A stretch of 64,000 nucleotides of DNA from Streptomyces globisporus. GTDB taxonomy: Bacteria > Actinomycetota > Actinomycetes > Streptomycetales > Streptomycetaceae. The stretch lies in assembly GCA_014649555.1 (NCBI GenBank), contig BMTG01000001.1, positions 744,001-808,000 on the forward strand, given 5' to 3'. Positions 6,040-27,370 of the stretch are shown here, one piece after another (position 1 is the first letter of the stretch; each line of letters opens with the position of its first letter). Both the position numbers and the translations under genes were made by a program. A model generated the notes under the pieces. That model saw only the letters and a list, made by a program, of their open reading frames with translations. It had not been told where the DNA came from and ran no database searches.

Positions 6040-9000
6040 ATGGATATTTTTGGGGCACGTGATCAGCTGGTCGCCGACTACCGCGCGTTCACTTCAGGCT
6101 TCGTCCCGGTACGTGACCCCAGGATCGCGGAGCATGTCCGGCGGGAACTCGACGAGGGCAGTCAGTGGCCCGAGCCGTGGCTGTCACTCAATCCGAACTT
6201 TGCGTCCGGCGGTGCAATCGGCGATCTGACCCTCGAAGGTGTCCTCCACTCGGAGTGCGAGCGCATCTTCCGGGTGAAGGACGTTCCCGAGGATCATGGT
6301 CAACACGCCATCACTCTGCACCGTCACCAGCGGGAGGCCGTCGCTGCGGCCGCCACGGGGAAGAGCTACGTTCTCACTACGGGCACGGGGTCCGGCAAGA
6401 GCATCGGGTACATTCTGCCGATTGTCGACCATGTCCTGCGCCGCAAGGACACCGGGGCGAAGCGGTCCATCAAAGCGCTCATCGTCTACCCCATGAACGC
6501 CTTGGCCAACAGCCAACTCGGCGAACTGACCAAGTTCCTCCGCCATGGCTACCCGGAGGGTGGCGAGCCGGTCACGTTCGCCCGCTACACCGGGCAGGAG
6601 GGCGACGCGGACCGCGAGCGGATCCTCGCTTCCCCGCCGGACATCCTGCTCACCAACTACGTGATGCTCGAGTACCTGCTGACCCGCCCCAGGGAGCGGG
6701 AAAAGTTGGTCAGAGCCGCGCAGGGACTGTCTTTTCTCGTACTCGACGAACTGCATACCTACCGAGGCCGTCAAGGCGCGGACGTCGCCATGCTGGTCCG
6801 CAGGGTGCGCGACGCTTGCGCTGCTCCTGATCTGCAGTGTGTCGGCACCTCCGCGACCATGGTCTCCGGCGGTACTCCGCAGGAGCAGCGAGAGGCTGTG
6901 GCGGAGGTCGCCTCCCGACTCTTCGGCGCCCCTGTCCCTTCCTCCAATGTCATCGGCGAGACGCTGGTCAGGGCCACCACGCCCGCACACGACCGGACCG
7001 CACTGGTCAAGGCGGCGGCGGAGCCGCCGACGTCCGGTCAGTACGAGGCGCTTTCGGTGAACCCGCTCGCTGCCTGGGTGGAGGAGGAATTCGGCCTCGC
7101 CGTGGCGCCCACGGCTCCGGCAGAAGGGAGCCGGCAGGATTTCGTCCGCCGCGCGCCCACCACCGTCCAGGACGCTGCCGACCGACTCGCCTCCGTCACC
7201 GCTCTGGCACCGGACCACTGCGCAAAGGCGATCCGCACCGTGTTGCAGGCCGGCAGCCAAGCGATCGATCCTGTCACCGGGCGCCCTCTGTTCGCCTTCC
7301 GCCTGCACCAGTTCCTCTCCAAGGGCGATACCGTCCACGTCAGCCTGGAACCGGCGGAATCCCGCCACATCACGAGCCAGTACCAGACGGTCGTGCCTGA
7401 GCAGCCCGGCAAGGCGTTGCTTCCCCTGGCGTTCTGCCGTGAATGCGGCCAGGAGTATCTGGTTGTGGCCCGCGAACGGCGTGCAGAGCACGAGGTGTTC
7501 ACCGCCCGCCGCGACAACGACGCGAGCGGCGGCGACCTGGTCGCGGGCTACCTCTATGTCAGTGCGGCGCAGCCGTGGCCCCACGATGTGGCAGTGGCCG
7601 TCCGGGACGGCCGACTCCCCGACTCCTGGATCGACCCGACCGCGAGCGGCGACGCAGCCGTGTTGCCCCGCCGCGCCCCTCACCTGCCCCAGGAGATCTG
7701 GGTCGGCCCTGACGGATCCGTACAGGATCGCGGGCAGGGGCTCTGTGCGGCCTTCATCCCTTCACCGTTCGCCTTCTGCCTGCGCTGCCGCGTCAGCTAC
7801 GAACAGACCAGAGGCAGTGACTTCGCCAAACTGGCCACCTTGTCCGCCGAGGGCCGCAGCTCCGCGGTCTCGGTCATCAGCGCGAGCGTGGTCCGGAGCC
7901 TGCGCGCGGTCGAAGATCCCGGCTTCCCGGACGCGGCACGCAAACTGCTCACCTTCGTCGACAACCGACAGGACGCCAGCCTGCAGGCGGGCCACTTCAA
8001 CGACTTCGTCCAGGTCACTCAGCTCAGAGGCGCCCTCCACCGAGCCGCGGCCCGAGCGGGTTCACTGGAGCACGACGAAGTTCCGCACCGTGTGGCAGAG
8101 GCCCTCGGCCTCGGGCTCAGGGACTTCGCCCAGAACCCTGAGGCCAAGTTCGGCCAGCGCGACGCAGTGCTGCGCACCTTCCGCGACGTGCTCGCCTTTC
8201 GTGTCTTCCGGGATCTGGAACGTGGTTGGCGGATCACCATGCCCAACCTGGAGCAGGTAGGGCTACTGCGCATCGACTACGCGTACCTGCCGGAGATCTC
8301 GGCCGACACCGAGTACTGGAAGGACGTCTGCGCCCCGTTGCGGGAGGCCGAACCACAACTGCGGGAGGAACTGAGCCGCATCGTGCTCGACGAGATGCGG
8401 CGCGGCCTGGCCGTCGACGTCGAGTGGTTCACGGATGAGGGTTTCGAACGGCTGCAGAGCCGCAGCGACCAGCACCTCACCGGCGCGTGGGCGCTGCCCG
8501 AGCGCTCACAGCCCCCGCAGGCCGGCATGGTCTTCGCCCGTCCGGGTCGTCCGGGCCGTCCCCGCTCCGAGCTCAACTTCACCGGGCGCTCGGCGCTCGG
8601 TCGTTACCTGCGGCGTCCGGGGACCTTCCCGTCAGCCGACACGCCCCTCGGGGTGGAGGACGCCCAGCGGGTCATCAGCGACCTGCTCCGTACCCTCAAG
8701 CGGTACGACCTGCTGGCCGAAGTCGTACCGGCCAAGGAGAACGGGGCGCCGGGCTACCGGCTGCGGGCCTCAGCACTCGTGTGGAGACCCGGTGACGGTG
8801 TTTCCGGCGCCTCCGACCCGTTGCGCAGGACCTTCGACCCGGAGGCGGGTGCCCGGGTCAATGGTTTCTTCCGAAACCTCTACGGCGCCGTGGCCGGGGA
8901 ACTGCGGGGCCTCCACGCCGCCGAGCACACCGCTCAGGTCCGTGCCGAGGTCCGCCAGGACCGGGAGCAGGCGTTCCGCGACGGATCCCTCCCCCTGCTC

Positions 9001-11304
9001 TACTGTTCGCCCACCATGGAGCTGGGCGTGGACATCGCCACACTCAATGCCGTGGCCATGCGGAACGTACCGCCGACACCCGCCAACTACGCGCAGCGCT
9101 CCGGCCGGGCCGGCCGCTCCGGGCAACCTGCGCTGGTGACCACGTACTGCTCCACAGGCAACGCCCACGACCAGTACTACTTCCGGCGCTCCGATCGCAT
9201 GGTGGCCGGCTCCGTGGCCCCACCGCGCCTGGATCTCGCCAATGAGGAGTTGATCCGCTCCCACCTGCACGCCCTCTGGCTGGCCGAGACCGGCCTCTCG
9301 CTCGGCCATTCCCTGACCGACCTCCTCGACGTCGACGGGGAACAGCCCGCCCTCGCTCTGCAAGGCCGGGTGCAGCAGGCCGTGTCCGACCCGGCTGCCG
9401 CTCGGCGCGCTGTTGTCCGCGCACATCAGGTCCTCGACGGCCTGGGCTTGCAGGGGGCGCTCTGGTGGCGGGAGGGCTGGATCGAGGAGACGGTGGCCCG
9501 TACCCCGCACGCCTTCGATGCCGCCTGCGACCGGTGGCGCGACCTCTATCGCAGCGCCGTCCGCGAACGTGAGGAACAACACCGGCGCTGGATGAACCAC
9601 TCCAGCAGCCAGAAGGCCCGTAACCGCGCCGACCAGCGTTACCGGGAGGCCAAACGCCAGATCCTACTGCTCCGCAACGAGGAGTCCGGCTCCTCCGGCC
9701 AGGCGCAGAGCGATTTCTACTCCTACCGCTATTTCGCCTCGGAGGGATTCCTTCCCGGATACTCCTTCCCCCGGTTGCCGCTCGCCGCCTACATCCCCGG
9801 CGGCCGGGGCCCTCAGCGCCGTGACGGCGACTACCTGCAGCGGCCCCGTTTTCTGGCCATCCGTGAGTTCGGCCCCGGGGCGCTCATCTACCACGAGGGC
9901 GCTCGTTATCAGGTCACCCACGTGCAGATTCCGGTGGAGGGGGGAGACGGCGAAATCGCGACGGGATCCGTCCGCATCTGCACCTCCTGTGGGTACTTGC
10001 ACCGGGACGAGGCGGGAGTCGACCTCTGTGTGCAGTGTTCCGCGTATCTGCCCACTCCAAAGCGGGACCTCATGCGCCTGCAAACGGTCTTCACTCGGCG
10101 CCGGGAGCGGATTTCCTCCGACGAGGAGGAGCGCCGCCGTGCCGGTTTCGACCTGCTCACGGCCTACGAGTTCTCCAGCCACGGTGCCCGCTCGGGGCGA
10201 CAGGACGCCCATGTGACCGACTCCTCCGGCGCAGCGGTGGCCCACCTCACCTACGGTGACACCGCGACCATCCGCATCATCAATCTGGGCCGACGCCGTC
10301 GCCGCGACAACGAGCCCGACGGCTTCTGGCTCGACATCGGCCAGGGACGATGGCTCAGTGACCGTGCCGCCACCGGCGACGCGACGCCGGAGGACACCGA
10401 ACTGTTCGCGGACACCAACCGCGAGGCAGAGGACGTTCAGCTCAAGCGCCGTGTCATCCCCTACGTGGAGGACCGCCGTAACATCCTGCTCTTCCGGTGC
10501 GCGCAACCGGTCGACGAACGCACGGCTGCCAGCCTGCAGTACGCGTTGGAGCGCGGCATCGAGGCGGTGTTCCAACTGGAGGACGCGGAGCTGACGAGTG
10601 AGTCTCTGCCGGATGCCGACGGGCGTGGCCGGATCCTGCTCACCGAGAGTGCCGAGGGCGGGGCCGGGGTTCTCCGCCAGTTGCAGGACGTCCCGGGCGC
10701 GCTCGCCGCCGTCGCCGCGGAAGCCCTGCGCCTGTGCCACTTCGATCCGGAGACAGGTGCCGATCTGGACCGTGCCGAAGGTGCCCGGGAGCGTTGCGAG
10801 CTCGCCTGCTACGACTGTCTTCTCTCGTACTCCAATCAGGCACGGCACGGCCTGGTGAATCGACACACGGTCCGTGACCTGCTGCTGACACTGAGCAGGA
10901 CCACCACGGTGCACGCCGGATCCGGTGGTGACCGTGTCGGGTCGGTGCAGGAGCTGTCCGCCCGCACGGACAGCGGGCTGGAGCGCGACTGGCTGGCCTG
11001 GATGGAAACCGGTGGGTTCCGCCTGCCCGACGGGGCCCAGCCACTGATCGACACCGGCGGGCAGAAGGTCCGTCCGGACTTCGTCTACCGTCGGCCCGAC
11101 GGCGACACCGCCGTCTTCGTCGACGGGCCCCACCACGAGGACCCAAACCGCTCAGAGCGCGACCAGCGGGCGGAGGACGCCTTGTGGGAGGCCGGCTGGA
11201 ACGTCGTCCGGTTCCGTCATGATCAGCGGGAGGCGGGGGGCTGGACGGCCATCGCCCACCGTCACGAGGGAGTCTTCGGGACCTCCCGTCCCGACACCGG
11301 ATGA
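6040..11304 (+). CDS. DEAH helicase with DUF1998/MZB zinc domain and C-terminal nuclease-like domain
   Basis: A 1754-residue superfamily 2 helicase of the MrfA/YprA (COG1205-like) type. In order: Walker A GTGSGKS at residues 115-121; DELH box at 236-239; a large insertion; helicase C domain with QRSGRAGRSGQ from residue 1019; a zinc-ribbon CTSC/CVQC at 1314-1317 and 1330-1333; and the four-cysteine MZB/DUF1998 signature at C1566, C1586, C1590, C1593 in CELACYDCLLSYSNQ. The last 90 residues look like a Vsr/DUF559-type nuclease fold: RPDF with D1680, FVDGPHHE with D1695, then a GWNVVRFRHD ending. Start: ATG at 6040 with GAAGG ten bases upstream; the frame is open further upstream but without helicase-like sequence. 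In DISARM, DrmA supplies the helicase and DrmB the DUF1998 domain; here one protein has both. First gene of a three-gene cassette. Confidence 0.9.
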   Translation: MDIFGARDQLVADYRAFTSGFVPVRDPRIAEHVRRELDEGSQWPEPWLSLNPNFASGGAIGDLTLEGVLHSECERIFRVKDVPEDHGQHAITLHRHQREAVAAAATGKSYVLTTGTGSGKSIGYILPIVDHVLRRKDTGAKRSIKALIVYPMNALANSQLGELTKFLRHGYPEGGEPVTFARYTGQEGDADRERILASPPDILLTNYVMLEYLLTRPREREKLVRAAQGLSFLVLDELHTYRGRQGADVAMLVRRVRDACAAPDLQCVGTSATMVSGGTPQEQREAVAEVASRLFGAPVPSSNVIGETLVRATTPAHDRTALVKAAAEPPTSGQYEALSVNPLAAWVEEEFGLAVAPTAPAEGSRQDFVRRAPTTVQDAADRLASVTALAPDHCAKAIRTVLQAGSQAIDPVTGRPLFAFRLHQFLSKGDTVHVSLEPAESRHITSQYQTVVPEQPGKALLPLAFCRECGQEYLVVARERRAEHEVFTARRDNDASGGDLVAGYLYVSAAQPWPHDVAVAVRDGRLPDSWIDPTASGDAAVLPRRAPHLPQEIWVGPDGSVQDRGQGLCAAFIPSPFAFCLRCRVSYEQTRGSDFAKLATLSAEGRSSAVSVISASVVRSLRAVEDPGFPDAARKLLTFVDNRQDASLQAGHFNDFVQVTQLRGALHRAAARAGSLEHDEVPHRVAEALGLGLRDFAQNPEAKFGQRDAVLRTFRDVLAFRVFRDLERGWRITMPNLEQVGLLRIDYAYLPEISADTEYWKDVCAPLREAEPQLREELSRIVLDEMRRGLAVDVEWFTDEGFERLQSRSDQHLTGAWALPERSQPPQAGMVFARPGRPGRPRSELNFTGRSALGRYLRRPGTFPSADTPLGVEDAQRVISDLLRTLKRYDLLAEVVPAKENGAPGYRLRASALVWRPGDGVSGASDPLRRTFDPEAGARVNGFFRNLYGAVAGELRGLHAAEHTAQVRAEVRQDREQAFRDGSLPLLYCSPTMELGVDIATLNAVAMRNVPPTPANYAQRSGRAGRSGQPALVTTYCSTGNAHDQYYFRRSDRMVAGSVAPPRLDLANEELIRSHLHALWLAETGLSLGHSLTDLLDVDGEQPALALQGRVQQAVSDPAAARRAVVRAHQVLDGLGLQGALWWREGWIEETVARTPHAFDAACDRWRDLYRSAVREREEQHRRWMNHSSSQKARNRADQRYREAKRQILLLRNEESGSSGQAQSDFYSYRYFASEGFLPGYSFPRLPLAAYIPGGRGPQRRDGDYLQRPRFLAIREFGPGALIYHEGARYQVTHVQIPVEGGDGEIATGSVRICTSCGYLHRDEAGVDLCVQCSAYLPTPKRDLMRLQTVFTRRRERISSDEEERRRAGFDLLTAYEFSSHGARSGRQDAHVTDSSGAAVAHLTYGDTATIRIINLGRRRRRDNEPDGFWLDIGQGRWLSDRAATGDATPEDTELFADTNREAEDVQLKRRVIPYVEDRRNILLFRCAQPVDERTAASLQYALERGIEAVFQLEDAELTSESLPDADGRGRILLTESAEGGAGVLRQLQDVPGALAAVAAEALRLCHFDPETGADLDRAEGARERCELACYDCLLSYSNQARHGLVNRHTVRDLLLTLSRTTTVHAGSGGDRVGSVQELSARTDSGLERDWLAWMETGGFRLPDGAQPLIDTGGQKVRPDFVYRRPDGDTAVFVDGPHHEDPNRSERDQRAEDALWEAGWNVVRFRHDQREAGGWTAIAHRHEGVFGTSRPDTG

Positions 11305-11386
11305 CGCAAATACGGCATCATCGACCCCGCATCCCGCGCCTACTCGGCGCGGACCAGGACCAGCACAGCCCCAGGAGGACAAGTCC

Positions 11387-14275
11387 GTGACGACGACGGC
11401 CGCCGCAGTCCCCAGCTCCTACGCCCCCGGCACTCTGGTGACCGCCCGGGGCCGGGAGTGGGTGGTCCTGCCCGGCAGTGCCGCCGACTTCCTTCTGCTG
11501 CGGCCCCTCGGCGGGGACGATGACACGATCGCCGGGGTCCTGCCCGCTCTGGAGTCCGTCGCACCCGCCTCCTTCGCACCGCCCACGACGGCCGACCTCG
11601 GCAATCAACTGTCCGCCGGCCTCCTGCGCACCGCTCTGCGCATCGGGTTCCGGGCCGCTGCCGGACCGCTGCGTTCGCTGGCCGGGATCGCGGTCGAGCC
11701 CCGCCAGTACCAGTTGGTGCCCCTTCTGCTGGCGATGCGGCAGGACACGGTCCGGCTGCTCATCGCCGACGACGTCGGGATCGGCAAGACGGTCGAGGCC
11801 GGTCTCGTCGTCAAGGAGTTGTTGGAGCAGGGGGAGGCGAACGGCCTGGCAGTGCTGTGCAGCCCGGCTCTGGCTGAGCAGTGGCAGGACGAACTGCGCA
11901 ACAAGTTCGGCATCGAGGCCGAACTCGTGCTGCCCTCTACGGCCAAGCGTCTGGAACGCGGCCTGCCGATCGGCCAGTCACTGTTCGACCGCTACCCGCA
12001 CGTGGTGATCTCGACCGATTTCATAAAGTCCCCCAAGCGTCGTGACGCCTTCGTCCGCAGCGCTCCCGACCTCGTCGTCGTCGACGAGGCGCACACGTCC
12101 GTCTCGGACGGCAAGGGCACCACGGACAAGCAGCAGAAGCAGCAGCGCTACGCACTCCTTCAGCGACTGGCGGCAGACCCCGGCCGGCACCTCCTCCTGG
12201 TGACCGCCACTCCGCACAGCGGCAAGGAGGAGGGCTTCCGCAACCTCATCGGCCTGCTCGACCCCGCGCTCGCCGATGTGGACCTGGAGCAGAGCAAGGG
12301 CCGCGACCTGCTCGCCCGGCACATGGTGCAGCGCCGTCGTCACGACATCCGCCGTTTCCTGGATCAAGAGACCCCCTTTCCTCGCGACCGTCAGACCAAG
12401 GAAGCCCCCTACCGGCTGTCCCGCGACTACAGCGAGCTCATGCGCCAGGTGCTGGAGTACGCCCGCGAGTCCGTACAGGGCACGGACGGCGAGCTGCGCC
12501 CCCGGGTCCGTTGGTGGTCCGCCCTCGCGCTGCTCCGAGCCCTCGCCTCGTCGCCGCGCGCGGCCGCCGCCACGCTGCGGAGCCGTAGCAGCACGGTCGC
12601 TGCCCAGAGCTTGCCGGAAGTCGAGGCCCTGGGCCGCGCCGCTGTCCTGGACCTCACCGACGACGACACACTGGAAGGCATCGACACCACCCCTGGCGGC
12701 GACGCAGGTGTGGAGCAGGCCGAACGCCGCCGCCTGCGCGCCATGGCCGACCGCGCCGTCGCGTTGGAGGGGGGCAAGGACGTCAAGCTCGCCACCCTCG
12801 TCAAGGAGGTCAAGGGCCTCCTCGCCGACGGGTACGACCCGATCGTCTTCTGCCGTTTCATTCACACCGCCGAGTACGTCGCGGAGCACCTTCAGGCCGC
12901 TGTGAAGAAGGCCGCCACGGTCCGCGCCGTCACCGGCGAGCTACCGCCGGCCGAGCGTCTGGCCCGTATCGGTGAGCTCACGGAGGTGCCAGGCCGCCGT
13001 GTCCTGGTAGCCACCGACTGCCTCTCGGAGGGCGTCAACCTTCAGGAGCACTTCCAGGCCGTCGTCCACTACGACCTCGCCTGGAACCCCACCCGCCATG
13101 AGCAGCGCGAGGGGCGCGTCGACCGCTTCGGCCAGCCTCGCGACTACGTCCGTGCCATCACCCTCTACGGGCAGGACAACGGCATCGACGGCCTCGTGCT
13201 GGATGTCCTCATCCGCAAGTACCAGGCCATCCGGCGCTCCACCGGTGTTGCCGTTCCGGTCCCCGACACCGGCGACAGCATCGTCAAGGCGCTGCTGGAG
13301 GGTCTTCTCCTGCGCCAGGAGGACAGCGAGCAACTCGCCTTCGACCTCGATATCGCCACCGGGCGCGACAACCTGCACCGTGCCTGGGAAAGCGCGGCCG
13401 AGCGTGAGAACAGGCAGCTCACGAAGTTCGCCCAGTCCGGTGTACGGCTGGAGGAGGTGCAGGCCGAGGTCGATGAGATCCGTGCCGTCCTCGGTGGCCA
13501 GGCGGACGTCGCTTCCTTCGTCCGTGAGGTCCTGCTCGCACTGGGATCATCCTTGCGGGAGGTGAACGACCGTAAGGGCGCGGGATTCGTCGCCACCACG
13601 GACACTCTGCCGCTCGCCCTCAAGCATGTTCTCGGCGGCGACCTGTCCAAGCCGCGCGATGCGGGCTTCGTCCTCCTGCCGCCCGCCCGTCAGGGAAACG
13701 CGGCGCTGGTACGTACCGACCCGAAGGTCGGCGCGGTCGCCCAGTACGTTCTGGACAGCGCCCTCGACCCCGACCTGCCGGAGCGGCTGCGGCCGGCGCA
13801 GCGATGCGGCGTCATCCGCACCGCGCACGTCGCCACCCGCACCACATTGCTGCTGGTGCGCCACCGTTTCCATCTCACGCTCCCGACCCGGCGCGGAGAG
13901 CCCCGCACCCTGGTGGCGGAGGACGCCCGCCTGGCCGCCTTCCGCGGCAGCCCGACCGAACCCGACTGGCTGGACGAACAGGAGGCCCAGGCGCTGCTCG
14001 CTCTGGAGCCCACCAGCAACACCGCCCGTACGTTGGCCGAGGCCCAGCTCGGGCGGGTCCTGGACGCCCTGCCACACCTGCAGCCCGTGCTCGATTCCCG
14101 GGCAGCCGAGCAGGCCGGGCAGCTCCGGGAGTCACACCGCAGGGTGCGTTCCGCGGTGGGGGCACTGAAGCGGGGCCTGGACGTGCAGGCCCAGCCGCCG
14201 GCCGACATCCTCGGGGTGTACCTCTACTTGCCGGACAGCTCGACCGCCCACCACACCACAGGAGAACACCGGTGA
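11387..14275 (+). CDS. SNF2/RapA-type helicase (DrmD-like)
   Basis: A 962-residue SNF2-family ATPase. Walker A is GIGKT at residues 131-135 in DDVGIGKTVEAGLV, the DEAH box is at 233-236, and the helicase C domain contains LSEGVNLQEHFQ and HEQREGRVDRFGQ (about 570-585), the form seen in RapA/HepA and in DISARM DrmD proteins. The last 300 residues are alpha-helical and unassigned. The GTG at 11387 has a perfect AGGAGGA ribosome site eight bases upstream, while the open frame above it overlaps the end of the first gene. It lies 82 bases after the helicase gene, and its stop overlaps the next start (GTGA), so translation of the methylase is probably coupled to it. Confidence 0.92.
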   Translation: MTTTAAAVPSSYAPGTLVTARGREWVVLPGSAADFLLLRPLGGDDDTIAGVLPALESVAPASFAPPTTADLGNQLSAGLLRTALRIGFRAAAGPLRSLAGIAVEPRQYQLVPLLLAMRQDTVRLLIADDVGIGKTVEAGLVVKELLEQGEANGLAVLCSPALAEQWQDELRNKFGIEAELVLPSTAKRLERGLPIGQSLFDRYPHVVISTDFIKSPKRRDAFVRSAPDLVVVDEAHTSVSDGKGTTDKQQKQQRYALLQRLAADPGRHLLLVTATPHSGKEEGFRNLIGLLDPALADVDLEQSKGRDLLARHMVQRRRHDIRRFLDQETPFPRDRQTKEAPYRLSRDYSELMRQVLEYARESVQGTDGELRPRVRWWSALALLRALASSPRAAAATLRSRSSTVAAQSLPEVEALGRAAVLDLTDDDTLEGIDTTPGGDAGVEQAERRRLRAMADRAVALEGGKDVKLATLVKEVKGLLADGYDPIVFCRFIHTAEYVAEHLQAAVKKAATVRAVTGELPPAERLARIGELTEVPGRRVLVATDCLSEGVNLQEHFQAVVHYDLAWNPTRHEQREGRVDRFGQPRDYVRAITLYGQDNGIDGLVLDVLIRKYQAIRRSTGVAVPVPDTGDSIVKALLEGLLLRQEDSEQLAFDLDIATGRDNLHRAWESAAERENRQLTKFAQSGVRLEEVQAEVDEIRAVLGGQADVASFVREVLLALGSSLREVNDRKGAGFVATTDTLPLALKHVLGGDLSKPRDAGFVLLPPARQGNAALVRTDPKVGAVAQYVLDSALDPDLPERLRPAQRCGVIRTAHVATRTTLLLVRHRFHLTLPTRRGEPRTLVAEDARLAAFRGSPTEPDWLDEQEAQALLALEPTSNTARTLAEAQLGRVLDALPHLQPVLDSRAAEQAGQLRESHRRVRSAVGALKRGLDVQAQPPADILGVYLYLPDSSTAHHTTGEHR

Positions 14276-17200
14276 CCCGCCACCGCCTCGCCACCGAGAC
14301 CACATCCGCAGTGCGGGTGGTGGGCGGTCTGGTACCCGCCGGGCTGCTCGCCCGGATCAGTTCGGGCCGGGACGTGGAGGGCCTCGACCCCGCCACGTAC
14401 CACCTCCCCGGTGGTGAGACCGTCCGCGACGACGCCGGCCGGTCCTGGACCTATCTCCTGGGACGCTGGAAGGCGTTCCGCGACGATCTGGACGCCCTTC
14501 CGGAAGCCGACCGCGGCACCACCCTGACCCGCAAGAACTGGTTGCTGCCGCTCTTCCGCGAGCTCGGCTACGGACAGCTCCCGGCCGTGGGCGCGGGTGG
14601 TCTTCCGTCCGACGACAGCGAGAAGCACTTCGCCGTCTCCCACCATTGGGAGCATGTACCGGTCCACCTGCTGGGCTGGCACCTCGACCTCGACCGCCGC
14701 CACCCAGGCGTTCCGGGGGCAGCCGACACCGCGCCCCAGTCCCTGGTCCAGGAGTGCCTCAACCGCGCCACCGGCCGGTTGTGGGGCTTGGCCTCCAACG
14801 GCCGCGTGCTGCGGCTGCTGCGCGATTCGACGACCTTGATCGGCGCCTCCTACATCGAGTTCGACCTGGAGTCGATCTTCGACGGGGAGCAGTACGCGGA
14901 CTTCGTCCTGCTGTATCTGATGGCCCATCAGTCGCGTGTCGAAATGCCGGCCCGGACGGGTACGGACGGGATGGAGAGCGAACCCGTTCCGGCCGACTGC
15001 TGGCTGGAGCGCTGGCGCGTCGCCGCCATCGACACAGGCGCCCGAGCTCTGGAGAAGCTGCGGGGAGGCGTGGCCGAAACGCTGGAAACCCTTGGTGCTG
15101 GCTTCTTGGCGGCCAACCCCCAGCTGAAGGAACGCCTACGCACGGGCGAACTGAGTTTGGAGGACTACCACAGGGCGCTGCTGCGGACGGTGTACCGTCT
15201 GCTCTTCCTCTTCGTCACCGAGGACCGCGGCGCCCTGCTGGACCCGGAGGCGGAGGAGCTCGCCCGCGAGCGCTACACCCGGTACTTCTCCACCGGACGG
15301 CTGCGAGAACTCGCACTGCGGCGGGTGGGGGACACGAAGGGCGATCTGTGGCAGGCCCTCGTCCTGGTCACCGGCGGCCTGGGCAGCGAGCGGGGCGTCC
15401 CCGAGCTCGGACTGCCACCGCTCGGCGGCCTCTTCGACCACGGTCCGCTCGACATCCTCCAGGACCTCGCCCTACCCAACCAGGTGCTGCTGTCCGCAGT
15501 ACGGTCACTGGCCCTGGTACGGGACGGAAGCGGCCGGCCCATCCGTATCGACTACCAGCACCTGGGCGCGGAGGAGTTGGGCAGCGTCTACGAATCGCTG
15601 CTGGAGGAGGTCCCGCAGTACGACCCCGCCGAACCGGATGTCTTCACCCTGGAGCGGCTGGCTGGTAACGAGCGCAAGAAGACGGGCTCGTACTACACAC
15701 CGACACCGCTCATCGACTGCCTGCTGGACAGCACGCTCGCCCCCCTGATCCGGCAGGCTCTGCGCGAGAGCGACCCGGAGCGGGCGCTGCTGGAGCTGAC
15801 GGTCTGCGACCCAGCATGCGGGTCCGGGCACTTCCTGGTGGCATCGGCCCGCCGACTTGCCAAGGCGCTCGCGTACGTCAGGACAGGCGACCCGGAGCCT
15901 GTACCGGTGGCGGTCCGCAGTGCGATGCGGGACGTCGTCTCGCACTGCATCCACGGCGTGGACCTCAACCCGCTGGCCACGGAGCTGGCCAAGGTGTCGC
16001 TCTGGCTGGAGACCCTGGAGCCGGGGCGCCCGCTCAGCTTCCTGGACGCCCAGATCAAGGTCGGCAACGCGCTTCTCGGCGTGACGCCCCGGCTGCTGGC
16101 GAACGGCATCCCGGACGAGGCGTACAAACCGCTCGGCGGCGACGACAAGCGCGTCGCGGCGTCCCTGCGTAAGCGCAACGCGGCCGAACGGATCGGCCAG
16201 AGCGACCTGTTCAGCGAGGCGTCCGTGCGGGTGGAGAACGCCCGCTTCGCGAAGGCCGTCGCGTCGGTCGTCCAGGCCCCGGCCCGCTCGCTGGTCGACA
16301 TCCACGTCCAGGCGCAGCGCTACCGCGACCTGGCCCGTTCCCCGGAACTGCGGCGCGCGAAGGACGTCGCCGACGCCTGGTGCGCGGCCTTCGTCTGGCG
16401 CAAGACCGCTGATGCTCCGCCCGGTGTCACCACTGCGGTGGTCGAGCAGCTCGACACCGCTCCCGAGACGGTCGAGGACGGGACGCGCGAGGAGGTCTAC
16501 CGGCTGGCTGAGGAGTACCGCTTCTTCCACTGGCATCTGGAGTTCCCCCACGTCTTCGCCGTGGACGACATGGACGCGGCGGACGCACATCCGCACACGG
16601 GCTGGCGCGGCGGCTTCGCGTGCATGGTCGGCAATCCTCCCTGGGAGAAGGTGAAGCTGTCCGAGAAGGAGTTCTTCGCCGGCCGCCACCCGGGGATCGC
16701 GAACGCCGCCAACAAGGCCGCTCGCGAACGGGAGATCAAGAAGCTGGAGCAGAGCGAGGCCGGTGCGGCCCTGCATGCCGAGTTCGTGGCCGCCCGCCGC
16801 CGGGCAGAGGGCGAGAGCCATCTCCTGCGCTCCTCCGACCGGTATCCGCTGGCCGGGCGCGGGGACGTCAACACGTACGCGGTCTTCGCCGAGACCGCCA
16901 CGCACGCGATCGCCCCCAAGGGGCGGATGGGCCTGGTCCTCCCCACCGGCATCGCGACCGACGCCACGACGGCCCCGTTCTTCTCCGACCTGGTGCGGAC
17001 GGGTCGGCTGGCGTCGTTCCTGGACTTCGAGAACGAGGCGTTCATCCTCAGCCGGGATGTTCACCACAGCGTTCGGTTCTGCCTGCTCTCCGCCGGGGGC
17101 CAGGACGTACGGGTGGGCGAGGCGTCCTTCGCCTTCAAGACCCGGTACATGAACGATTTGCCGTCCCGTATGTTCGCCATGCCGCCCGAGGAGATCCTGC

Positions 17201-18309
17201 TCGTCAACCCGAACACGGGCACGCTGCCCGTGTTCGGCAGCCGCCGCGACGCCGAGATCACGCTGGGGATCTACCGGCGGGTGCCGGTCCTGATCCGCGA
17301 GGGTGACCCGAACGGCAATCCGTGGGGTGTGTCGTTCATGACGATGTTCCACATGGCCAACGACTCGGGCCTCTTCCGCACCCGCGCTGAGCTGGATGCC
17401 GAGGGCTGGCAGCTCAGGGGGAACGTCTTCGAGCGCGGTGAGGAGCGGATGCTGCCGCTCCTGGAGGCGAAGATGCTCCACCACTTCGACCACCGGTACG
17501 GCAGCTACGAGGGGCAGACCCAGGCCCAGGCCAACATGGGCACGCTGCCGCGCACCACGGCTGAGCAGCATGACGATCCGTCGTTCGTCACGTTGCCCCG
17601 GTACTGGGTCCCGCAGAGCGAGGTCGACAGCCGCCTAGGGGGGCGTTGGGAGCATCAGTGGCTGCTCGGGTGGCGGGACATCGCCCGCTCGTCTGACGAG
17701 CGGACGATGATTTCCTCTGTCTTCCCCAAGGTCGGCGTCGGACACACCAACCCACTGGCCCTTGTACCGAACTCCGCTGCCGCGGCCCTGTTCTACGCCC
17801 TGTCGACGTCCTTCGTTCTGGACTACGTGATCCGGCAGAAGATCGCAGGCACACACCTGACCTACGGCTACGTGGAACAGCTTCCGATGCCGTCGCCAAG
17901 CGTCTTCGAGGAGCTGGCAAGGGGCCTGGTCGAGGACCCGATCCCGTGGGTCGTCGAGCGAGTGATCGAGCTTACCTATAGCGCCTACGACGTGGCCCCG
18001 TTCGCTCAGGACCTGCGCCACCACGGGGAACCGTTCCGCTGGGACGTGACACGTCGCAGGAGGCTGAGGGCGGAGCTGGAGGCACTGTTCCTCCACGTGT
18101 ACGGACTCAGCGAGGCGGATGCGGAAAATGTTCTGGACAGCTTCGCTGTCGTGAACCGCAAGGACAGGGATTCCTTCGGCGCGCGCAGGACGACAGACGA
18201 AGTGATCACCGCGTACCGGGCAATGAGCGAGGCCTTGGCCAGTCGTGTTCCGTACCGGACAACGATCGCGCCACCGCCGGGCCACGGCTCAGCTCACGAC
18301 GGGCGCTGA
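14272..18309 (+). CDS. adenine-specific DNA methylase (Eco57I/PglX/DrmMI-like)
   Basis: A 1345-residue N6-adenine methyltransferase. SAM motif I is DPACGSGHFL from residue 513 and the catalytic motif IV is NPPW at 788-791. A long N-terminal helical region and a C-terminal target-recognition-like region (after about residue 900) flank the core. I see no clear PD-(D/E)XK motif in the N-terminal part, so it looks like a stand-alone modification enzyme as in DISARM class 1 or BREX, not a self-contained type IIG enzyme. The GTG start overlaps the SNF2 gene stop by four bases, with GGAG nine bases upstream. It most likely methylates host DNA so that the two helicases spare it (inference from DISARM). 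Confidence 0.92.
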   Translation: MTRHRLATETTSAVRVVGGLVPAGLLARISSGRDVEGLDPATYHLPGGETVRDDAGRSWTYLLGRWKAFRDDLDALPEADRGTTLTRKNWLLPLFRELGYGQLPAVGAGGLPSDDSEKHFAVSHHWEHVPVHLLGWHLDLDRRHPGVPGAADTAPQSLVQECLNRATGRLWGLASNGRVLRLLRDSTTLIGASYIEFDLESIFDGEQYADFVLLYLMAHQSRVEMPARTGTDGMESEPVPADCWLERWRVAAIDTGARALEKLRGGVAETLETLGAGFLAANPQLKERLRTGELSLEDYHRALLRTVYRLLFLFVTEDRGALLDPEAEELARERYTRYFSTGRLRELALRRVGDTKGDLWQALVLVTGGLGSERGVPELGLPPLGGLFDHGPLDILQDLALPNQVLLSAVRSLALVRDGSGRPIRIDYQHLGAEELGSVYESLLEEVPQYDPAEPDVFTLERLAGNERKKTGSYYTPTPLIDCLLDSTLAPLIRQALRESDPERALLELTVCDPACGSGHFLVASARRLAKALAYVRTGDPEPVPVAVRSAMRDVVSHCIHGVDLNPLATELAKVSLWLETLEPGRPLSFLDAQIKVGNALLGVTPRLLANGIPDEAYKPLGGDDKRVAASLRKRNAAERIGQSDLFSEASVRVENARFAKAVASVVQAPARSLVDIHVQAQRYRDLARSPELRRAKDVADAWCAAFVWRKTADAPPGVTTAVVEQLDTAPETVEDGTREEVYRLAEEYRFFHWHLEFPHVFAVDDMDAADAHPHTGWRGGFACMVGNPPWEKVKLSEKEFFAGRHPGIANAANKAAREREIKKLEQSEAGAALHAEFVAARRRAEGESHLLRSSDRYPLAGRGDVNTYAVFAETATHAIAPKGRMGLVLPTGIATDATTAPFFSDLVRTGRLASFLDFENEAFILSRDVHHSVRFCLLSAGGQDVRVGEASFAFKTRYMNDLPSRMFAMPPEEILLVNPNTGTLPVFGSRRDAEITLGIYRRVPVLIREGDPNGNPWGVSFMTMFHMANDSGLFRTRAELDAEGWQLRGNVFERGEERMLPLLEAKMLHHFDHRYGSYEGQTQAQANMGTLPRTTAEQHDDPSFVTLPRYWVPQSEVDSRLGGRWEHQWLLGWRDIARSSDERTMISSVFPKVGVGHTNPLALVPNSAAAALFYALSTSFVLDYVIRQKIAGTHLTYGYVEQLPMPSPSVFEELARGLVEDPIPWVVERVIELTYSAYDVAPFAQDLRHHGEPFRWDVTRRRRLRAELEALFLHVYGLSEADAENVLDSFAVVNRKDRDSFGARRTTDEVITAYRAMSEALASRVPYRTTIAPPPGHGSAHDGR

Positions 18310-18339
18310 GCGTCGGCACCTGGCCAGGTACAAAGGTCG

Positions 18340-18370: not shown

Positions 18371-18386
18371 TGAGCCTGATATCCGG

Positions 18387-18605: not shown

Positions 18606-18606
18606 C

Positions 18607-19464
18607 TTACTCAGTTCCCTTCGCAATCCTGATGATCAGGTCGCGCGATGGGCCCGTATCCAACGCCGCCGCTCGCAGAAGGTCGTAGGCGCGACCGTAG
18701 GCGGCCAGGTCCTCGTCGCGTTCCAGGTAGAGGCTACTCGTCAGGGACTCGGCATACACCACGTCGAGATCGCCTCTCACCGGGAACTCCAGGATGACGA
18801 ACGGACCCAACATCCCGATGTGCCCACCTGCGCTGAACGGAAGAACCTGAAGAACGACATGGGGCTGCTCAGCAGCTTCGGCGAGCCGCAACAGCTGCCT
18901 CTCCCTGACTTCATGCGGACCAACCTGCCTGCGCAGGACCGCTTCGTCCACGATGGCCCACATCTTGAGCGGTTCCTCACGCGTCAGCACTGCATTCTGC
19001 CGCGCGAGGCGCACCTCCACCAACGCCCGGACATCTGCCGCGCTGGCCTCTGGTTGCAGTGCCTGAATGGTCGCCCGTGCGTAGTCCGGGGTCTGCAACA
19101 AGCCGGGGATCAGAAGCGTTTGGAAACTCCTCATCGCAACGGCTTCCGCTTCGAAGCCGATGTACGAGGCGTAGCGCTGGGTCAGTACATCACTGTACGG
19201 CTGCCACCAGACGCGCTGCTTGCCCTCACGGGCGAGTGCTCCCAAAGCCTCTCGCTCCTCCTGCGAGCTCACGCCGTACAGGTCCAGCACCTTGGCGATC
19301 TCATGGGCACGCATTCCGCTACGCCCGTTCTCCACACGGCTGAGCTTGGACTGATGCCAGCCCATATTGCTGGAAACCTCCTCCGTGGTGAGTCCTGCGT
19401 GGTCACGCAGTTTGCGCAGCTCCATACCGAGGATGCGGCGTCGAACGGTTGGCCGGGCAGCCAT
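18607..19464 (-). CDS. XRE regulator with DUF5753 domain (Scr1/WhiJ-type)
   Basis: A 285-residue regulator. The helix-turn-helix is at about residues 15-70 (LRKLRDHAGLTTEEVSSNMG, then WHQSKLSRVENGRSGMR), followed by the DUF5753 effector domain (YIGFEAEAVAMRSFQTLLIP, GLLQTPDYARA, then PFSAGGHIGMLGPFVILEFP). The ATG at 19464 is preceded by GGAGGAG. An upstream in-frame start would run through the promoter palindromes and is rejected. The family includes WhiJ, a developmental regulator, and Scr1, described as a toxin-antitoxin-like regulator. The partners are the DUF397 gene behind it and the divergent HATPase gene, the classic three-gene set. Confidence 0.9.
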   Translation of the reverse strand: MAARPTVRRRILGMELRKLRDHAGLTTEEVSSNMGWHQSKLSRVENGRSGMRAHEIAKVLDLYGVSSQEEREALGALAREGKQRVWWQPYSDVLTQRYASYIGFEAEAVAMRSFQTLLIPGLLQTPDYARATIQALQPEASAADVRALVEVRLARQNAVLTREEPLKMWAIVDEAVLRRQVGPHEVRERQLLRLAEAAEQPHVVLQVLPFSAGGHIGMLGPFVILEFPVRGDLDVVYAESLTSSLYLERDEDLAAYGRAYDLLRAAALDTGPSRDLIIRIAKGTE

Positions 19465-19508
19465 GGCTCCTCCTCCTGCTGGTGCGGCACCTTCACCAGT
19501 ACGAGTGA

Positions 19509-19545
19509 AAGTGCATATGCACTTAATCAAATGCCTTGGCACTTT
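19509..19545. promoter_or_regulatory. two palindromic sites in the divergent promoter
   Basis: AAGTGCATATGCACTT at 19509-19524 is a perfect 16-bp palindrome. Seven bases on, AAATGCCTTGGCACTTT (19529-19545) is a related imperfect copy that shares the GCACTT half. They lie between the XRE gene start at 19464 and the HATPase start at 19615. They are probably the operator of the XRE-DUF5753 protein. Confidence 0.65.
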
Positions 19546-19614: not shown

Positions 19615-20115
19615 ATGATCAACCTGCTGTACCGCCGGACACTCCACGCAGGAATCACGACCACTCAGCACGCCATCGGCGTCAGGCCCCAAGCCGGCCC
19701 ACCCTGGGGCGACGCCACCCGCACCACCTTCCGTATCCGGGCGGAGGAGCGCTCCGTCCCGTCCGCGCGGCGCTACACCCGGATCTGGCTGGAGGACATC
19801 CAGGGCATCGAGGACGACGGAGCCTGCGAGAGTCTGCTGCTGATCGTCTCCGAGCTGGTGACCAAAGCCGTCGTCCACACCGAGAGCACGTGGATCACCT
19901 GCTACCTCTGGGCCGCCGCCGACCTCCTGCACGTCGAGGTACAGGACCAGGGGACTCGCCTGGCCGGCCCGAACATCCGCTCGGCCACCGCCGACGACGA
20001 GCACGGACGTGGTCTGCTGCTCGTCCAAACGCTCGCCCAGGACTGGGGCATCATCCCCGACCCGGTTGAGGGCCGCTCGGTGTGGGCCGCAGTCCCCTTC
20101 ACCCCAACGCACTGA
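19615..20115 (+). CDS. HATPase (anti-sigma/AbaA-type ATP-binding protein), degenerate N-box
   Basis: A 166-residue GHKL ATPase-like protein of the RsbW/SpoIIAB group that accompanies XRE-DUF5753/DUF397 pairs in Streptomyces. Visible: SELVTKAVVHTE at about residues 83-94, where the family has SELVTNAVRHA, so the Mg-ATP-binding Asn of the N-box is Lys; DQGTR in place of the DxGxG box; and an intact GRGLLLV box. ATP binding may therefore be weak or absent. AAGGAG lies directly against the ATG at 19615, which is unusually close, so the true start is uncertain. It is divergent from the regulator gene across the two palindromes. Confidence 0.8.
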   Translation: MINLLYRRTLHAGITTTQHAIGVRPQAGPPWGDATRTTFRIRAEERSVPSARRYTRIWLEDIQGIEDDGACESLLLIVSELVTKAVVHTESTWITCYLWAAADLLHVEVQDQGTRLAGPNIRSATADDEHGRGLLLVQTLAQDWGIIPDPVEGRSVWAAVPFTPTH

Positions 20116-21738: not shown

Positions 21739-23565
21739 TTGGCAAGTCTGCACGAGGCGCTGGACGAGCGGGACGACCTCGACCCGTACGGCGATCCGGT
21801 CAAACGCATGCTCTTCGCGGCGCAGATGGCGTTCGAGGTGGAGGACATCCAGGCGCTGGCGGTGGAGCACCTGGTTCAGGTCCTGCCCGGTGAGGCTCCT
21901 TGTCTGGTTTACGTCGACGAAGAAACCGGGAAGGCGGTGCTGGCCGCCGCGGGTACGGTCGCCCGCGCAGGTCTGCTGGACGCGGACTCGAACGAATCCC
22001 CTCTTTCTCGTGTTTCTGGCATCGCTTCTCTTTCCCACCTCGTTGCCCAGGCACTCTCACTCCCCGGCGCCTCTGCGACAGAGTCTGAACTGCCGAGTGA
22101 GGTAGAAGCAGCCTGTCGGGACTTCGGTGATTCCATGCGCACGGGGGCGGTGCAACGTCTGGAGCTCTGGTACGTACATTCGGGTGCGCCCTCCGCCGTG
22201 GCACAGGCACACCTTCGACGACTGCGGCACATCGCGGAACCGCTGCTGACCGGCCTGGCGGCTGCTTTGCGCATCGAAGACGCCGAGGTGTCGGACCCGC
22301 ACCTCAGCTCCTGGTACGACCGCGAGCACTCACAGATCCAGGTCGAGGACTGGGTCAACATCCCGTGCCCCGAGGGCGGCCCGCTCCCCCAGTCCGGACC
22401 GGGCTGGGACGCCCGCTCACTTTCGGTCAGTGGGGCTTGGCTGAAAGCTCTGGTCACGCAACACGAGGAGAAGCTCTTCTCCGCAAACATCCGGGGCTAT
22501 CTCGGCCGCAACCGTAGCGCCAGCAACATCAATCACGGCATCCAGCAGACGATCGACGACCGTCCTGAGATGTTCTGGCCGTTCAACAACGGCATCACTG
22601 CCTTGGTCCACGAGATCGAACAGGTGAAGGACGGCGTTCTACCCGTACGGGGGCTGTCCATCATCAACGGCGCCCAGACCGTTGGCGTCATCAGCAAGGC
22701 AAGGCCGGAGCAGGCTGAGCGTATTCAAGTCACCGCGCGCTTCATCCGATGCGACGACGCGCAAACCGTGCGGGACATCATCCGGTACAACAACCGTCAG
22801 AACCCCACCTTGGCTGCCGACTACCGCAGCACCGACCCCATCCAGAACCGATTGCGTGAGCAGTTCGACGAGCTCGGGGTGATCGGCTACAACGGCGGTC
22901 GGCGGGGCGGGATCGAGGACGTGATCCGGCGGCCCGGGGAGAACATGATCAGGGCCACTGTGGCCGGTCAGGCGCTGGCTGCATTCCACGGGGACCCGGC
23001 CACGGCCTACCATAGGAAGAACGCCATCTGGGAGGACGACGCCCTCTATGCGGGTGTTTTCCACAAGCGCATCAATGCCCCCCACGTCATCTTTTGTCAT
23101 TCGCTGTACAAGGCGGTCGAACAGCGCGCTCGTCAGCTGTACCAGCTTCCCACTGACGAGAAAACCGCCTTCATCGAAGGTCAGATCGGCTTCCTTCGCG
23201 GCGGAGGTGCAACCTGGCTGCTCATCACCGCCCTGGCAGAGTCGCTGGACACCGTGCTGGGCAGGGCCATCCCCAACCGGTCCGAACTCGCCTTCCGAAA
23301 GCCCGACCCGGAGCAGGCCGTGAAGCACTGGGCGCCGTTGGTGGAACTGGGGCTGGCAGCTGCGCATCACTCACTCGCCAACGCGGTCTCCAGCTCCGGG
23401 AGGTTCCGGGACGAAGCAGTTCGTACAGAAGCTCTCACTGCGTTCCAGGCGATGATGGGCCTGTTCGTCAGCGACCACGGCCCTCGGTGCAAGGCGTTCG
23501 CCGCCCAAGTCTCCCCTCTCGCCGATAACTCGGCAGATACGACCGACCAGAAGGACGAGGCGTGA
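21739..23565 (+). CDS. AIPR family (abortive infection phage resistance) protein
   Basis: A 608-residue AIPR (PF10592-type) protein. The family core is clear at about residues 245-330: FSANIRGYLGRNRSASNI, FWPFNNGIT, then LSIINGAQTVG. AIPR proteins occur in restriction and abortive-infection loci; their biochemical activity is poorly defined. The TTG start at 21739 has GGGGGAAG just upstream. However, the same frame remains protein-like for 20 codons above it (DLSAAFRHIRDGFPGEA) up to a TGA at 21676. An ATG at 21675, one frame off, would join this stretch if one C of a CCC were removed, so a small frameshift near 21678-21681 may have shortened the gene. The stop overlaps the next start (GTGATGA). 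Confidence 0.88.
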   Translation: MASLHEALDERDDLDPYGDPVKRMLFAAQMAFEVEDIQALAVEHLVQVLPGEAPCLVYVDEETGKAVLAAAGTVARAGLLDADSNESPLSRVSGIASLSHLVAQALSLPGASATESELPSEVEAACRDFGDSMRTGAVQRLELWYVHSGAPSAVAQAHLRRLRHIAEPLLTGLAAALRIEDAEVSDPHLSSWYDREHSQIQVEDWVNIPCPEGGPLPQSGPGWDARSLSVSGAWLKALVTQHEEKLFSANIRGYLGRNRSASNINHGIQQTIDDRPEMFWPFNNGITALVHEIEQVKDGVLPVRGLSIINGAQTVGVISKARPEQAERIQVTARFIRCDDAQTVRDIIRYNNRQNPTLAADYRSTDPIQNRLREQFDELGVIGYNGGRRGGIEDVIRRPGENMIRATVAGQALAAFHGDPATAYHRKNAIWEDDALYAGVFHKRINAPHVIFCHSLYKAVEQRARQLYQLPTDEKTAFIEGQIGFLRGGGATWLLITALAESLDTVLGRAIPNRSELAFRKPDPEQAVKHWAPLVELGLAAAHHSLANAVSSSGRFRDEAVRTEALTAFQAMMGLFVSDHGPRCKAFAAQVSPLADNSADTTDQKDEA

Positions 23566-25748: not shown

Positions 25749-27370
25749 CGGCGATCAGGCTCACCGAGTACGGCGATCGCGTCGAGGCAGCCCTGCCGGA
25801 TGACGTCGCCGCCTGGCTGAGCAGCCGGAAGCTGCTGGAGATGCACCGCACTGCCGCGGTGGGGGTCTGGTCGCTGCGGGCCACCAGCACCGTCGGATCC
25901 GTCCGCATCGGGCACGGTCCGTCCGCCGTGGACATCACGATCACGCCGAAGGTGCCCATCGACCGGCTCGTCTTCCTGCTCGGTTACGCCCGCGACCCCA
26001 AGGGTTGGCAGAACCGTGAGGTGGAGCTCCCTCAGCGCAGCGAGCTCTTCCCGGCCGTGGCCACCGCCTTCGCCCGGCAGGCCGAGCGCGCGCTGCGCCA
26101 CGGACTCCTCCAGGGCTACCGGACCGTCCAGGAGGCACTGCCCGTCCTGCGGGGAAGGCTGCGCGAGCACGAGCAGCTGCGGCGACGCTTCGGGCTGATG
26201 GTGCCGGCCGAGGTCGAGTACGACGACTACTCGGCGGACATCGCGGAGAACCGTCTGCTCGCGGCAGCGGCTCGCCGCCTGTTGCGGCTTCCAGGACTCG
26301 GCGCGGGGGTACAGGGACAGCTCGGGCGGGTGCTCTCCCGGCTCGACGGGGTCACACCGTGGGTCCCCGGCCGCCCTCTGCCCGTTTGGCGGCCCACACG
26401 GCTCAACGCCCGCTACGTCACCGCCCTGCATCTGGCGGAACTCGTGCTGCGGGCAGGCTCGTTCGATCTGGAGCCTCATACCCCGGACGACGTACGGCCG
26501 CTCCAGGTGGACGGGTTCCTGTTCAACATGAACACCGTCTTCGAGGACTTCGTCACCACGGCGCTACGCGAGGCTCTCCGCCCCTACGGAGGCCGTTCCA
26601 GCGCCCAGGACCCCCAGTACCTCGACGTCAACTCGCAGGTGCGCATGCTTCCCGACCTCGTCTGGTACGGGCCCGAAGACCGGCCCTGCGCGATCGCGGA
26701 CGCCAAATACAAGGCGGGCAAGAAGGGAGGCTTCCCCGACTCCGACCTCTACCAGATGCTCGCCTACTGCACGGCACTCTCCCTGCGCCGAGGCCACCTT
26801 CTGTACGCGGCGGGCCATAGGGCGCTGACCGGCCACACCGTCCGCCGAGCAGGAGTAGAGATCGTGCAGCACGTACTGCCGCTGCACCTGCCGCCCGCTG
26901 AACTGCTGCGGGCGGTCGCACGTATCGCGGACGCGCTCGCGGCGGACCGGGCCGGGGCTGCTGACATCGGTCTGGTCTTCGGCCGAACGGTGACCGTGAC
27001 GGAGTTGCTCGCGGCGATGGGCCCGCTGGGCTGGAGTATGTACGGCGCCAATGGAGTCGAGTACACCAGGGGCGGCTCGCCCCGTACCGAGAACGGGTCC
27101 TCCACGCGCTCGGACATCGCCGGAATGCTGGACTCGGCGCTGGCTGAAGGAGAACACGTGAGTGTCTCCTTGCACCGGAACGACGGTCGTCGGAGCGGGC
27201 AGCTGCGGTTCCTGTCCGGAGCTGCCGAAGTGTCCCTCATCCTGCAGGACGACCGACCGCTTTCCCCCGCACCCGAGTCGAGCGACGCTCTCACGTACAT
27301 GCAGGAGCTTGCGCCTCTCCTGCGCCCGTTGGGACTGACCGGCTACCGGGTACAGGATTCCGGCGCCTGA
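25745..27370 (+). CDS. mcrC: McrC-type nuclease subunit
   Basis: A 541-residue McrC partner that binds McrB and cuts DNA. The PD-(D/E)XK core is visible as LPDLVWYG with D304 and IADAKYK with D319-A-K321, preceded by the McrC scaffold (PRSELFPAVATAF-like region and ADIAENRLLAAAARR). After about residue 400 there is a C-terminal extension of roughly 140 residues (MGPLGWSMYGANGVEYTR and on) that is not part of the usual McrC core and is unassigned. The GTG start overlaps the mcrB stop by four bases, giving strict operon order. The convergent gdhA gene follows after a terminator. Confidence 0.92.
   Translation: MTAIRLTEYGDRVEAALPDDVAAWLSSRKLLEMHRTAAVGVWSLRATSTVGSVRIGHGPSAVDITITPKVPIDRLVFLLGYARDPKGWQNREVELPQRSELFPAVATAFARQAERALRHGLLQGYRTVQEALPVLRGRLREHEQLRRRFGLMVPAEVEYDDYSADIAENRLLAAAARRLLRLPGLGAGVQGQLGRVLSRLDGVTPWVPGRPLPVWRPTRLNARYVTALHLAELVLRAGSFDLEPHTPDDVRPLQVDGFLFNMNTVFEDFVTTALREALRPYGGRSSAQDPQYLDVNSQVRMLPDLVWYGPEDRPCAIADAKYKAGKKGGFPDSDLYQMLAYCTALSLRRGHLLYAAGHRALTGHTVRRAGVEIVQHVLPLHLPPAELLRAVARIADALAADRAGAADIGLVFGRTVTVTELLAAMGPLGWSMYGANGVEYTRGGSPRTENGSSTRSDIAGMLDSALAEGEHVSVSLHRNDGRRSGQLRFLSGAAEVSLILQDDRPLSPAPESSDALTYMQELAPLLRPLGLTGYRVQDSGA

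Follow-up and report, generated by a model that had tools for sequence, protein, structure and literature searches.

A probable ARMADA Type I operon in Streptomyces globisporus and the state of its helicase-fused nuclease among relatives

Results

We analyzed a 64,000-nucleotide (nt) stretch of Streptomyces globisporus DNA, here called the window, which comes from an assembly of 8.25 Mb in 58 contigs. The analysis centered on positions 6040 to 18309, an interval filled by three open, codirectional and tightly packed genes for a helicase, an SNF2 ATPase and a methylase, which are probably a Type I operon of the defense system ARMADA. The first gene (6040..11304, plus strand; ATG start, 1,754 amino acids) codes for a YprA/DUF1998-family SF2 helicase with a C-terminal DUF559/Vsr-like nuclease, the candidate YprA subunit of ARMADA Type I. 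The second (11387..14275, plus strand; GTG start, 962 amino acids) encodes a RapA/BrxHII/DrmD/DpdE-like SNF2 ATPase, and the third (14272..18309, plus strand; GTG start, 1,345 amino acids) a PglX/DrmMI-like adenine DNA methyltransferase with an NPPW motif. A gap of 82 nt separates helicase and SNF2 genes; AGGAGG lies upstream of the GTG at 11387, and the SNF2 open frame begins earlier. The GTG of the methylase overlaps the SNF2 stop by 4 nt. ARAGORN called a tRNA inside the helicase gene (6553-6642), which we treated as a false positive, probably rightly, because it has no assigned anticodon and sits in coding sequence.

The helicase carries the motifs GTGSGK (residue 115), DELH (residue 236) and QRSGRAGR (residue 1019), with its Walker A GTGSGKS (residues 115-121) encoded at 6382..6402 (plus strand). 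Pfam detected DEAD (88 bits), Helicase_C (49 bits) and, above its cut-off of 24.2, the MZB (DUF1998) zinc-binding domain (PF09369, 38.3 bits; 10534..10821, plus strand). Two further zinc modules were invariant in 25/25 sequences. One consists of a first CxxC (C466, C469), encoded at 7435..7446 on the plus strand, and a second pair (C580, C583). The other, a CxxC..CxxC module (C1314, C1317, C1330, C1333; 9979..10038, plus strand), probably falls in the OB region, judging from its position. When residues 1-1100 were modeled (mean predicted local distance difference test score, pLDDT, of 75), the best solved fold was MrfA/YprA, over a partial-length alignment. Helicase and DUF1998 on one protein are the usual state of the family according to the ARMADA preprint (PMC12458937), and the split seen in DISARM is the exception.

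At the C terminus of the helicase lies a DUF559/REase_MTES_1575 (Vsr-like PD-(D/E)xK) nuclease domain (10969..11274, plus strand) in which E1648, D1680 and D1695-G-P-H-H1699 are intact. Residues 1624-1754 alone matched REase_MTES_1575 (PF18741) with an E value of 1.6e-4 and 22.1 bits, under the cut-off of 38.2, and DUF559 (PF04480) with an E value of 1.4e-3 and 18.9 bits, under the cut-off of 20.6. Of the C termini of nine relatives, two scored above the DUF559 cut-off, none above that of REase_MTES_1575, and L070 had no match. From its sequence, the DUF559-like C terminus is taken as the PD-(D/E)xK domain that Bell et al. named Vsr-type.

For the other two proteins, Pfam assigned SNF2-rel and Helicase_C to the SNF2 ATPase and Eco57I and N6_Mtase to the methylase. 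The former has G.GKT at residue 131 and DEAH at residue 233, and the latter DPACGSG at 513 and NPPW at 788. The SNF2 ATPase scored 1069 bits on the PADLOC DpdE model, 270 bits on the PADLOC DrmD model and 295 bits on the NCBIfam DrmD model (cut-off 610), while the methylase scored 193 bits on PADLOC DrmMI. Much of an earlier, sequence-only reading of this DNA was borne out. It had described three tightly packed codirectional genes, which the open frames, gap, overlap and motifs support; helicase and DUF1998 in one polypeptide, in agreement with an MZB match above the Pfam cut-off and invariant cysteine pairs; and an added C-terminal nuclease-like domain, which the intact motif residues and the two matches under the cut-offs favor. 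It had also noted the lack of a phospholipase D (PLD) gene, and Pfam found no PLD domain among the eight island proteins to which that search was confined.

ARMADA was described in a 2025 preprint by Bell et al. (PMC12458937) as YprA together with a BrxHII/RapA-like helicase and a PglX-like methylase. In its Type I, the YprA gene generally comes first and carries a C-terminal Vsr-type nuclease. The window shares with this type, which is abundant in Actinomycetota, the order of YprA, BrxHII-like SNF2 and PglX-like methylase and the fusion to DUF1998 and a Vsr-type nuclease. There is no defining difference; the XRE/RsbW pair, P0004 and AIPR gene of the window (see below) go unmentioned in the available text of the preprint, AIPR being absent from its main text. 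We identify 6040-18309 as an ARMADA Type I operon of YprA helicase-nuclease, BrxHII/RapA-like ATPase and PglX-like methylase with a probability of roughly 0.85. It is a well-formed, ordinary example of a system that was already known, although its description is very recent.

Profile scores supported this identification. On PADLOC, the window helicase reached 311 bits with the DruE model, compared to 92 bits with DpdJ and 50 bits with the best DrmA model. As a control, we scored other helicases on the DruE model: the DruE of a Druantia III locus (L071) reached 2584 bits, E. coli ARMADA II (L072) 349 bits and a Nocardioides locus (L007) 317 bits. Because the 311 bits of the window are near the ARMADA II and Nocardioides scores and far from 2584, its profile is that of ARMADA and not of Druantia. 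With DrmA and YprA included, the helicase tree had no meaningful root and its branches were very long; the better tree omits them, DrmA because its branch was too long. In the resulting tree of 22 helicases, which took in no published Type I sequence (representative WP_108720193.1), the window was one of 16 rows labeled Type I-like by gene content, and a branch with a Shimodaira-Hasegawa-like approximate likelihood ratio test (SH-aLRT) value of 99 set these apart from the two rows of Type II and the two of Druantia.

Gene content separates the operon from the neighboring systems as well. ARMADA Type II (E. coli L072 and Streptomyces L074, the E. coli sequences being plasmid copies) has the same three protein families, but in the order SNF2-methylase-YprA and with a UvrD-type fourth gene, whereas the window is YprA-first and sits on a separate branch. 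No UvrD-type (RelE-GajB-like) helicase was found by Pfam among the eight window proteins scanned. Druantia Type III (DruH-DruE) supplies the best-matching models of the window helicase, but it has a PLD nuclease, in contrast to the DUF559/Vsr-like nuclease, SNF2 ATPase and methylase of the window. DruH and other Dru proteins were missing from the PADLOC matches listed for the eight proteins, and a Druantia identity was rejected on the DruE score control together with gene content. For Dpd, no 7-deazapurine synthesis gene was present among the eight proteins, and the SNF2 ATPase stayed under the NCBI DpdE cut-off (191 versus 500 bits) despite its full-length PADLOC match. That match of 1069 bits is to PDLC02853, labeled DpdE; ARMADA proteins may have gone into the building of this model, which could mislabel such loci as Dpd. 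Finally, class 1 DISARM has a DrmD-like SNF2 and a DrmMI-like methylase in common with the window. Its DrmA and DrmB, however, are separate proteins accompanied by a PLD gene, whereas the window has a fused protein whose helicase is nearer to DruE than to DrmA models. Neither DrmB nor DrmC models appeared among the PADLOC matches listed for the eight proteins, and a DrmB query found no match in the window genome, in a search that had no positive control.

We surveyed the trio in other genomes. The complete set of helicase, SNF2 and methylase was present in 91/97 loci, window included; chance grouping is excluded because the trio is this consistently complete, and the wide co-occurrence on which the sequence-only reading depended was confirmed. 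Four of the six incomplete loci are cut by contig ends (L017, L037, L092, L118). Of the other two, L029 is interrupted close to the edge of its contig, and L039 lacks SNF2 and has its methylase after a truncated helicase. Within the complete 91, the methylase is split in L010 and L046 and the SNF2 gene in L116 and L124; L124 stands in for L054, as it covers the same site together with the end of the helicase. In L011, L012 and L070 the helicase comes last (SNF2-methylase-helicase), a reversed order that the preprint states for some Type I systems (PMC12458937). One scan of named genomes yielded 37 loci at 52-60% identity. With a 355-residue C-terminal query, the helicase was matched in 24/296 genomes of the window's class, and in 10/61 of its family (both counting its own genome), 28/150 of another family and 2/17 of a third, these samples being overlapping. 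Among plasmids, 68 of the 284 matching records covered at least 80% of the query. Carriage by viruses was rejected, since phage records gave only two partial helicase matches and the viral contigs scanned gave none.

The survey also revealed two states of the fused nuclease. Using the rule D[FLHMY]...DGxxH on 94 loci (the 97 minus L029, L037 and L039, which are broken, at a contig edge or truncated in the helicase), we found the motif intact in 49, including the window, and degraded in 45, whereas the preprint predicts the Type I nuclease to be active (PMC12458937). The division does not depend on this motif alone: among actinobacterial rows, the residue E1648, which was not used for sorting, was present in 44/44 with an intact motif versus 14/44 with a degraded one. 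Within the same rows, sequences of the nuclease part had a mean pairwise identity of 0.55 for the intact and 0.37 for the degraded, a gap to which sorting by the motif itself adds a little; for the MZB part, the values were 0.64 and 0.65. The remaining motifs persisted in all degraded loci that could be checked, namely the helicase Walker A in 27/27, the SNF2 Walker A in 44/44 and the methylase NPPW in 43/43. The DExH motif of SNF2 reads DEVH in ten loci. Mapped on a 93-row tree of SNF2 sequences, the nuclease state changed at least 7 times, and supported branches required 6 of these changes. Such decay in Actinomycetota relatives is possibly new to the literature: our search, with the supplements of PMC12458937 outside its scope, listed no other study devoted to ARMADA. 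One genome (G297) has two ARMADA I copies (L086, L087), one with an intact and one with a degraded nuclease, and in both McrB is directly behind the methylase.

Downstream of the operon, the window codes on the plus strand for an AIPR-family, AbiU-like protein (21739..23565; PF10592, 115 bits; PADLOC AbiU, 106 bits), a McrB-like AAA+ GTPase (23562..25748; GPPGTGKT and NTAD; AAA_5, 72 bits; NCBIfam McrB, 159 bits, under the cut-off of 637) and a McrC-like nuclease subunit (25745..27370; PDLV and DAKYK; PF10117, 178 bits). The window McrB begins 5.2 kb past the methylase, behind four other genes. In reports by Bell et al., Type IV McrBC is frequently linked to a DISARM-like YprA cassette (PMC11090510, from 2024; PMC12458937). 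The window resembles the association in PMC11090510 in having McrB and McrC downstream, but differs from it in the AIPR gene, P0004 and regulator pair in between. An AIPR gene between methylase and McrB was also seen in L022 and L033.

There is about an even chance that this is a defense island and nothing further, with ARMADA I, the AIPR-McrBC cassette and P0004 as independent cargo that are neighbors by chance. The slot behind the methylase does vary, being occupied by McrBC, by Gabija-like genes (L058, L101), by TIR (L085), by EcsC-like genes (L078, L082) or by an annotated SMC (L068). Against chance, McrB overlaps the methylase or starts no more than 130 nt away in 35/83 scorable loci, a figure that has no random-cargo control. 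In both loci with Gabija-like genes (L058, 6981-8699; L101, 8371-12089), the gene that immediately follows the ARMADA I methylase is of the OLD-TOPRIM kind, and in L101 a UvrD helicase gene comes next.

A larger composite, in which ARMADA I and McrBC, perhaps together with AIPR and P0004, form one system in Actinomycetota with McrBC as the cutter, is rather unlikely. It would account for McrB being downstream in 51/83 scorable loci and, of the 35 in which it is directly behind the methylase, overlapping it by 4 nt in 12, and the linkage already in print points the same way. McrB was directly behind the methylase in 27/40 degraded versus 8/43 intact loci (Fisher p 7e-6); put the other way, the fused nuclease was degraded in 27/35 loci with adjacent McrB and in 13/48 without. 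However, of 6-7 independent pairs, 2.6 went the same way, 0.9 the opposite way and 2.5 showed no difference (median p 0.625). With ancestry taken into account, the link between McrB and decay is not significant; it is a lead and not a finding. A variant counting McrB anywhere downstream was weaker still (1.7 versus 0.9, median p 1; under an earlier motif rule by which five F-to-Y loci counted as degraded). By source, adjacency was found in 19/21 degraded versus 1/8 intact loci of named genomes and, a weaker effect, in 8/17 versus 6/27 of more evenly drawn genomes; plasmids gave 0/2 versus 1/7, and the window, intact and not adjacent, completes the 43. The 13 degraded loci without adjacent McrB, the weaker effect in the more even sample and the distance of McrB in the window also speak against a single composite system.

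Between the methylase and the AIPR gene lie three genes which, like AIPR and McrBC, the earlier reading had missed. An XRE-DUF5753 regulator (18607..19542, minus strand) matched PF19054 at 189 bits, over the cut-off, and best among NCBIfam models the Sco1979 family at 264 bits, under its cut-off of 350. Divergent to it is a gene for an RsbW-like HATPase_c_2 protein (19615..20115, plus strand; PF13581, 43 bits). Such a regulator is a recurrent neighbor of the operon: of 79 loci that had 3 kb or more of sequence, 16, window included (other examples are L081, L113, L116 and L126), have an opposite-strand XRE-DUF5753-like gene no more than 3 kb from the end of the methylase, followed in 7 of them by a gene for an RsbW-like ATPase. 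This is far more often than the 22 DUF5753 matches in the 8.25 Mb of the window genome predict, namely about 0.4% per random 3-kb stretch on a given strand, assuming that other genomes resemble it. We attach no p-value to this neighborhood, given the relatedness of the rows and the post hoc nature of the observation. In none of the 16 loci was McrB directly behind the methylase.

The third gene, P0004 (20201..21589, plus strand), encodes a protein of an unnamed family; its open frame runs from 20009, and comparison with L066 makes the ATG at 20201 the likely start. It had no match in PADLOC, Pfam, NCBIfam, PDB sequences or PHROGs, and inspection by eye (GADIIYYN...VLVQYKK) suggests a putative PD-(D/E)xK nuclease. 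Among the loci examined, P0004 was confined to the window and L116, where a relative with 37% identity over 217 residues (7402-9258, minus strand) occupies the corresponding place between the XRE gene and McrBC. A 65% relative was found in the viral contig L066 (5013-6374), among genes that look head/tail-like by eye. At 12411-14084 of the reversed L116 stretch, a gene for a 557-residue protein, CoiA-like by eye, takes the place that AIPR has in the window, with the P0004 relative on one side and McrB on the other.

Discussion

Whereas the identity and anatomy of the operon come directly from this locus, its mechanism is one that we infer from homologues. As in BREX and DISARM, self would be told from non-self by inspection of double-stranded DNA and its adenine methylation, a task of the SNF2 ATPase together with the methylase. 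DNA structure would be recognized by the YprA helicase, which would load where replicating or incoming phage DNA has exposed single strands or ends and would unwind it locally while the OB-CON-DUF1998 canopy grips a strand. In the window copy, the intact C-terminal DUF559/Vsr-like domain may then nick the engaged DNA; in relatives with a decayed nuclease, cutting would probably be left to the neighboring McrBC or to host nucleases. The defense is expected to be direct and not abortive. Several published observations bear on this model. E. coli ARMADA II protects against 13/80 phages without abortive death, although lysis persists at the highest phage doses, and it needs all four genes, the helicase Walker motifs and NPPW, two other motif changes having only a partial effect (PMC12458937). 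DruE loads on 3' single-stranded DNA and cuts long DNA (PMC13192584), and DrmAB is autoinhibited and activated by 5'-overhang DNA (PMC9142583).

A number of points weigh against the identification as ARMADA Type I or against the mechanism attached to it. The published phage experiments concern Type II, whose fourth gene the window lacks (PMC12458937), and the published Type I representative is absent from our alignment and tree. A BrxA-like helical domain after RecA1, a feature of ARMADA Type I, had no match among the 50 fold rows listed for the helicase model, which does have helices at about 280-407. A model of residues 1085-1754 (pLDDT 79) retrieved no fold at an E value of 0.001 or below; its best rows were LuxS (E value 0.027), and PD-(D/E)xK folds were recognized at E values of 0.17 or above, among the best 50 of 470 fold rows. 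As for the mechanism, a purely protective methylase does not fit with the dependence of ARMADA II defense on each of its four genes, and the nuclease step is doubtful because the motif is degraded in many relatives.

The sequence-only reading had proposed a compact, reduced relative of DISARM in which the fused nuclease replaces the PLD protein. The relationship of the cassette to DISARM is upheld by the DrmD and DrmMI matches of its SNF2 ATPase and methylase. A class 1 DISARM reduced by fusion of drmA to drmB and loss of drmC is nevertheless highly improbable, since against those two matches stand the DruE and DrmA scores of the helicase, the recurrence of the trio as a unit in nearly all loci (with no search for drmB or drmC in those other than the window) and an annotated drmA-drmB pair 4.4 kb from a copy of the operon on the Nocardioides plasmid L007. 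On this plasmid, drmA-drmB occupies 3748-9644 and an ARMADA I-McrBC operon 14064-30045; because both coexist there, DISARM and ARMADA I are separate systems. The locus fits the published separate class ARMADA Type I instead, which corrects the reading as reduced DISARM and adds a Streptomycetaceae copy to that type. Degradation of the nuclease motif in nearly half of the loci, while the other motifs persist, weakens the idea that the fused nuclease takes the role of the PLD protein.

As a tentative and rather improbable extension, ARMADA I of Actinomycetota could be an open platform with a fixed core for recognition and translocation and an exchangeable cutter. The fused nuclease would have decayed several times independently, with McrBC or other docked effectors taking over, and the window would keep the ancestral self-cutting state, its AIPR-McrBC cassette standing beside a separate XRE/RsbW-type switch. 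Independently of such a platform, the survey suggests that the helicase-fused nuclease is not what selection keeps most strictly in this family. Its decay parallels the apparent non-essentiality in DISARM of DrmC, which appears dispensable there (PMC9142583), and raises the testable question of which enzyme cleaves phage DNA when the nuclease of a helicase-methylase defense system looks dead.

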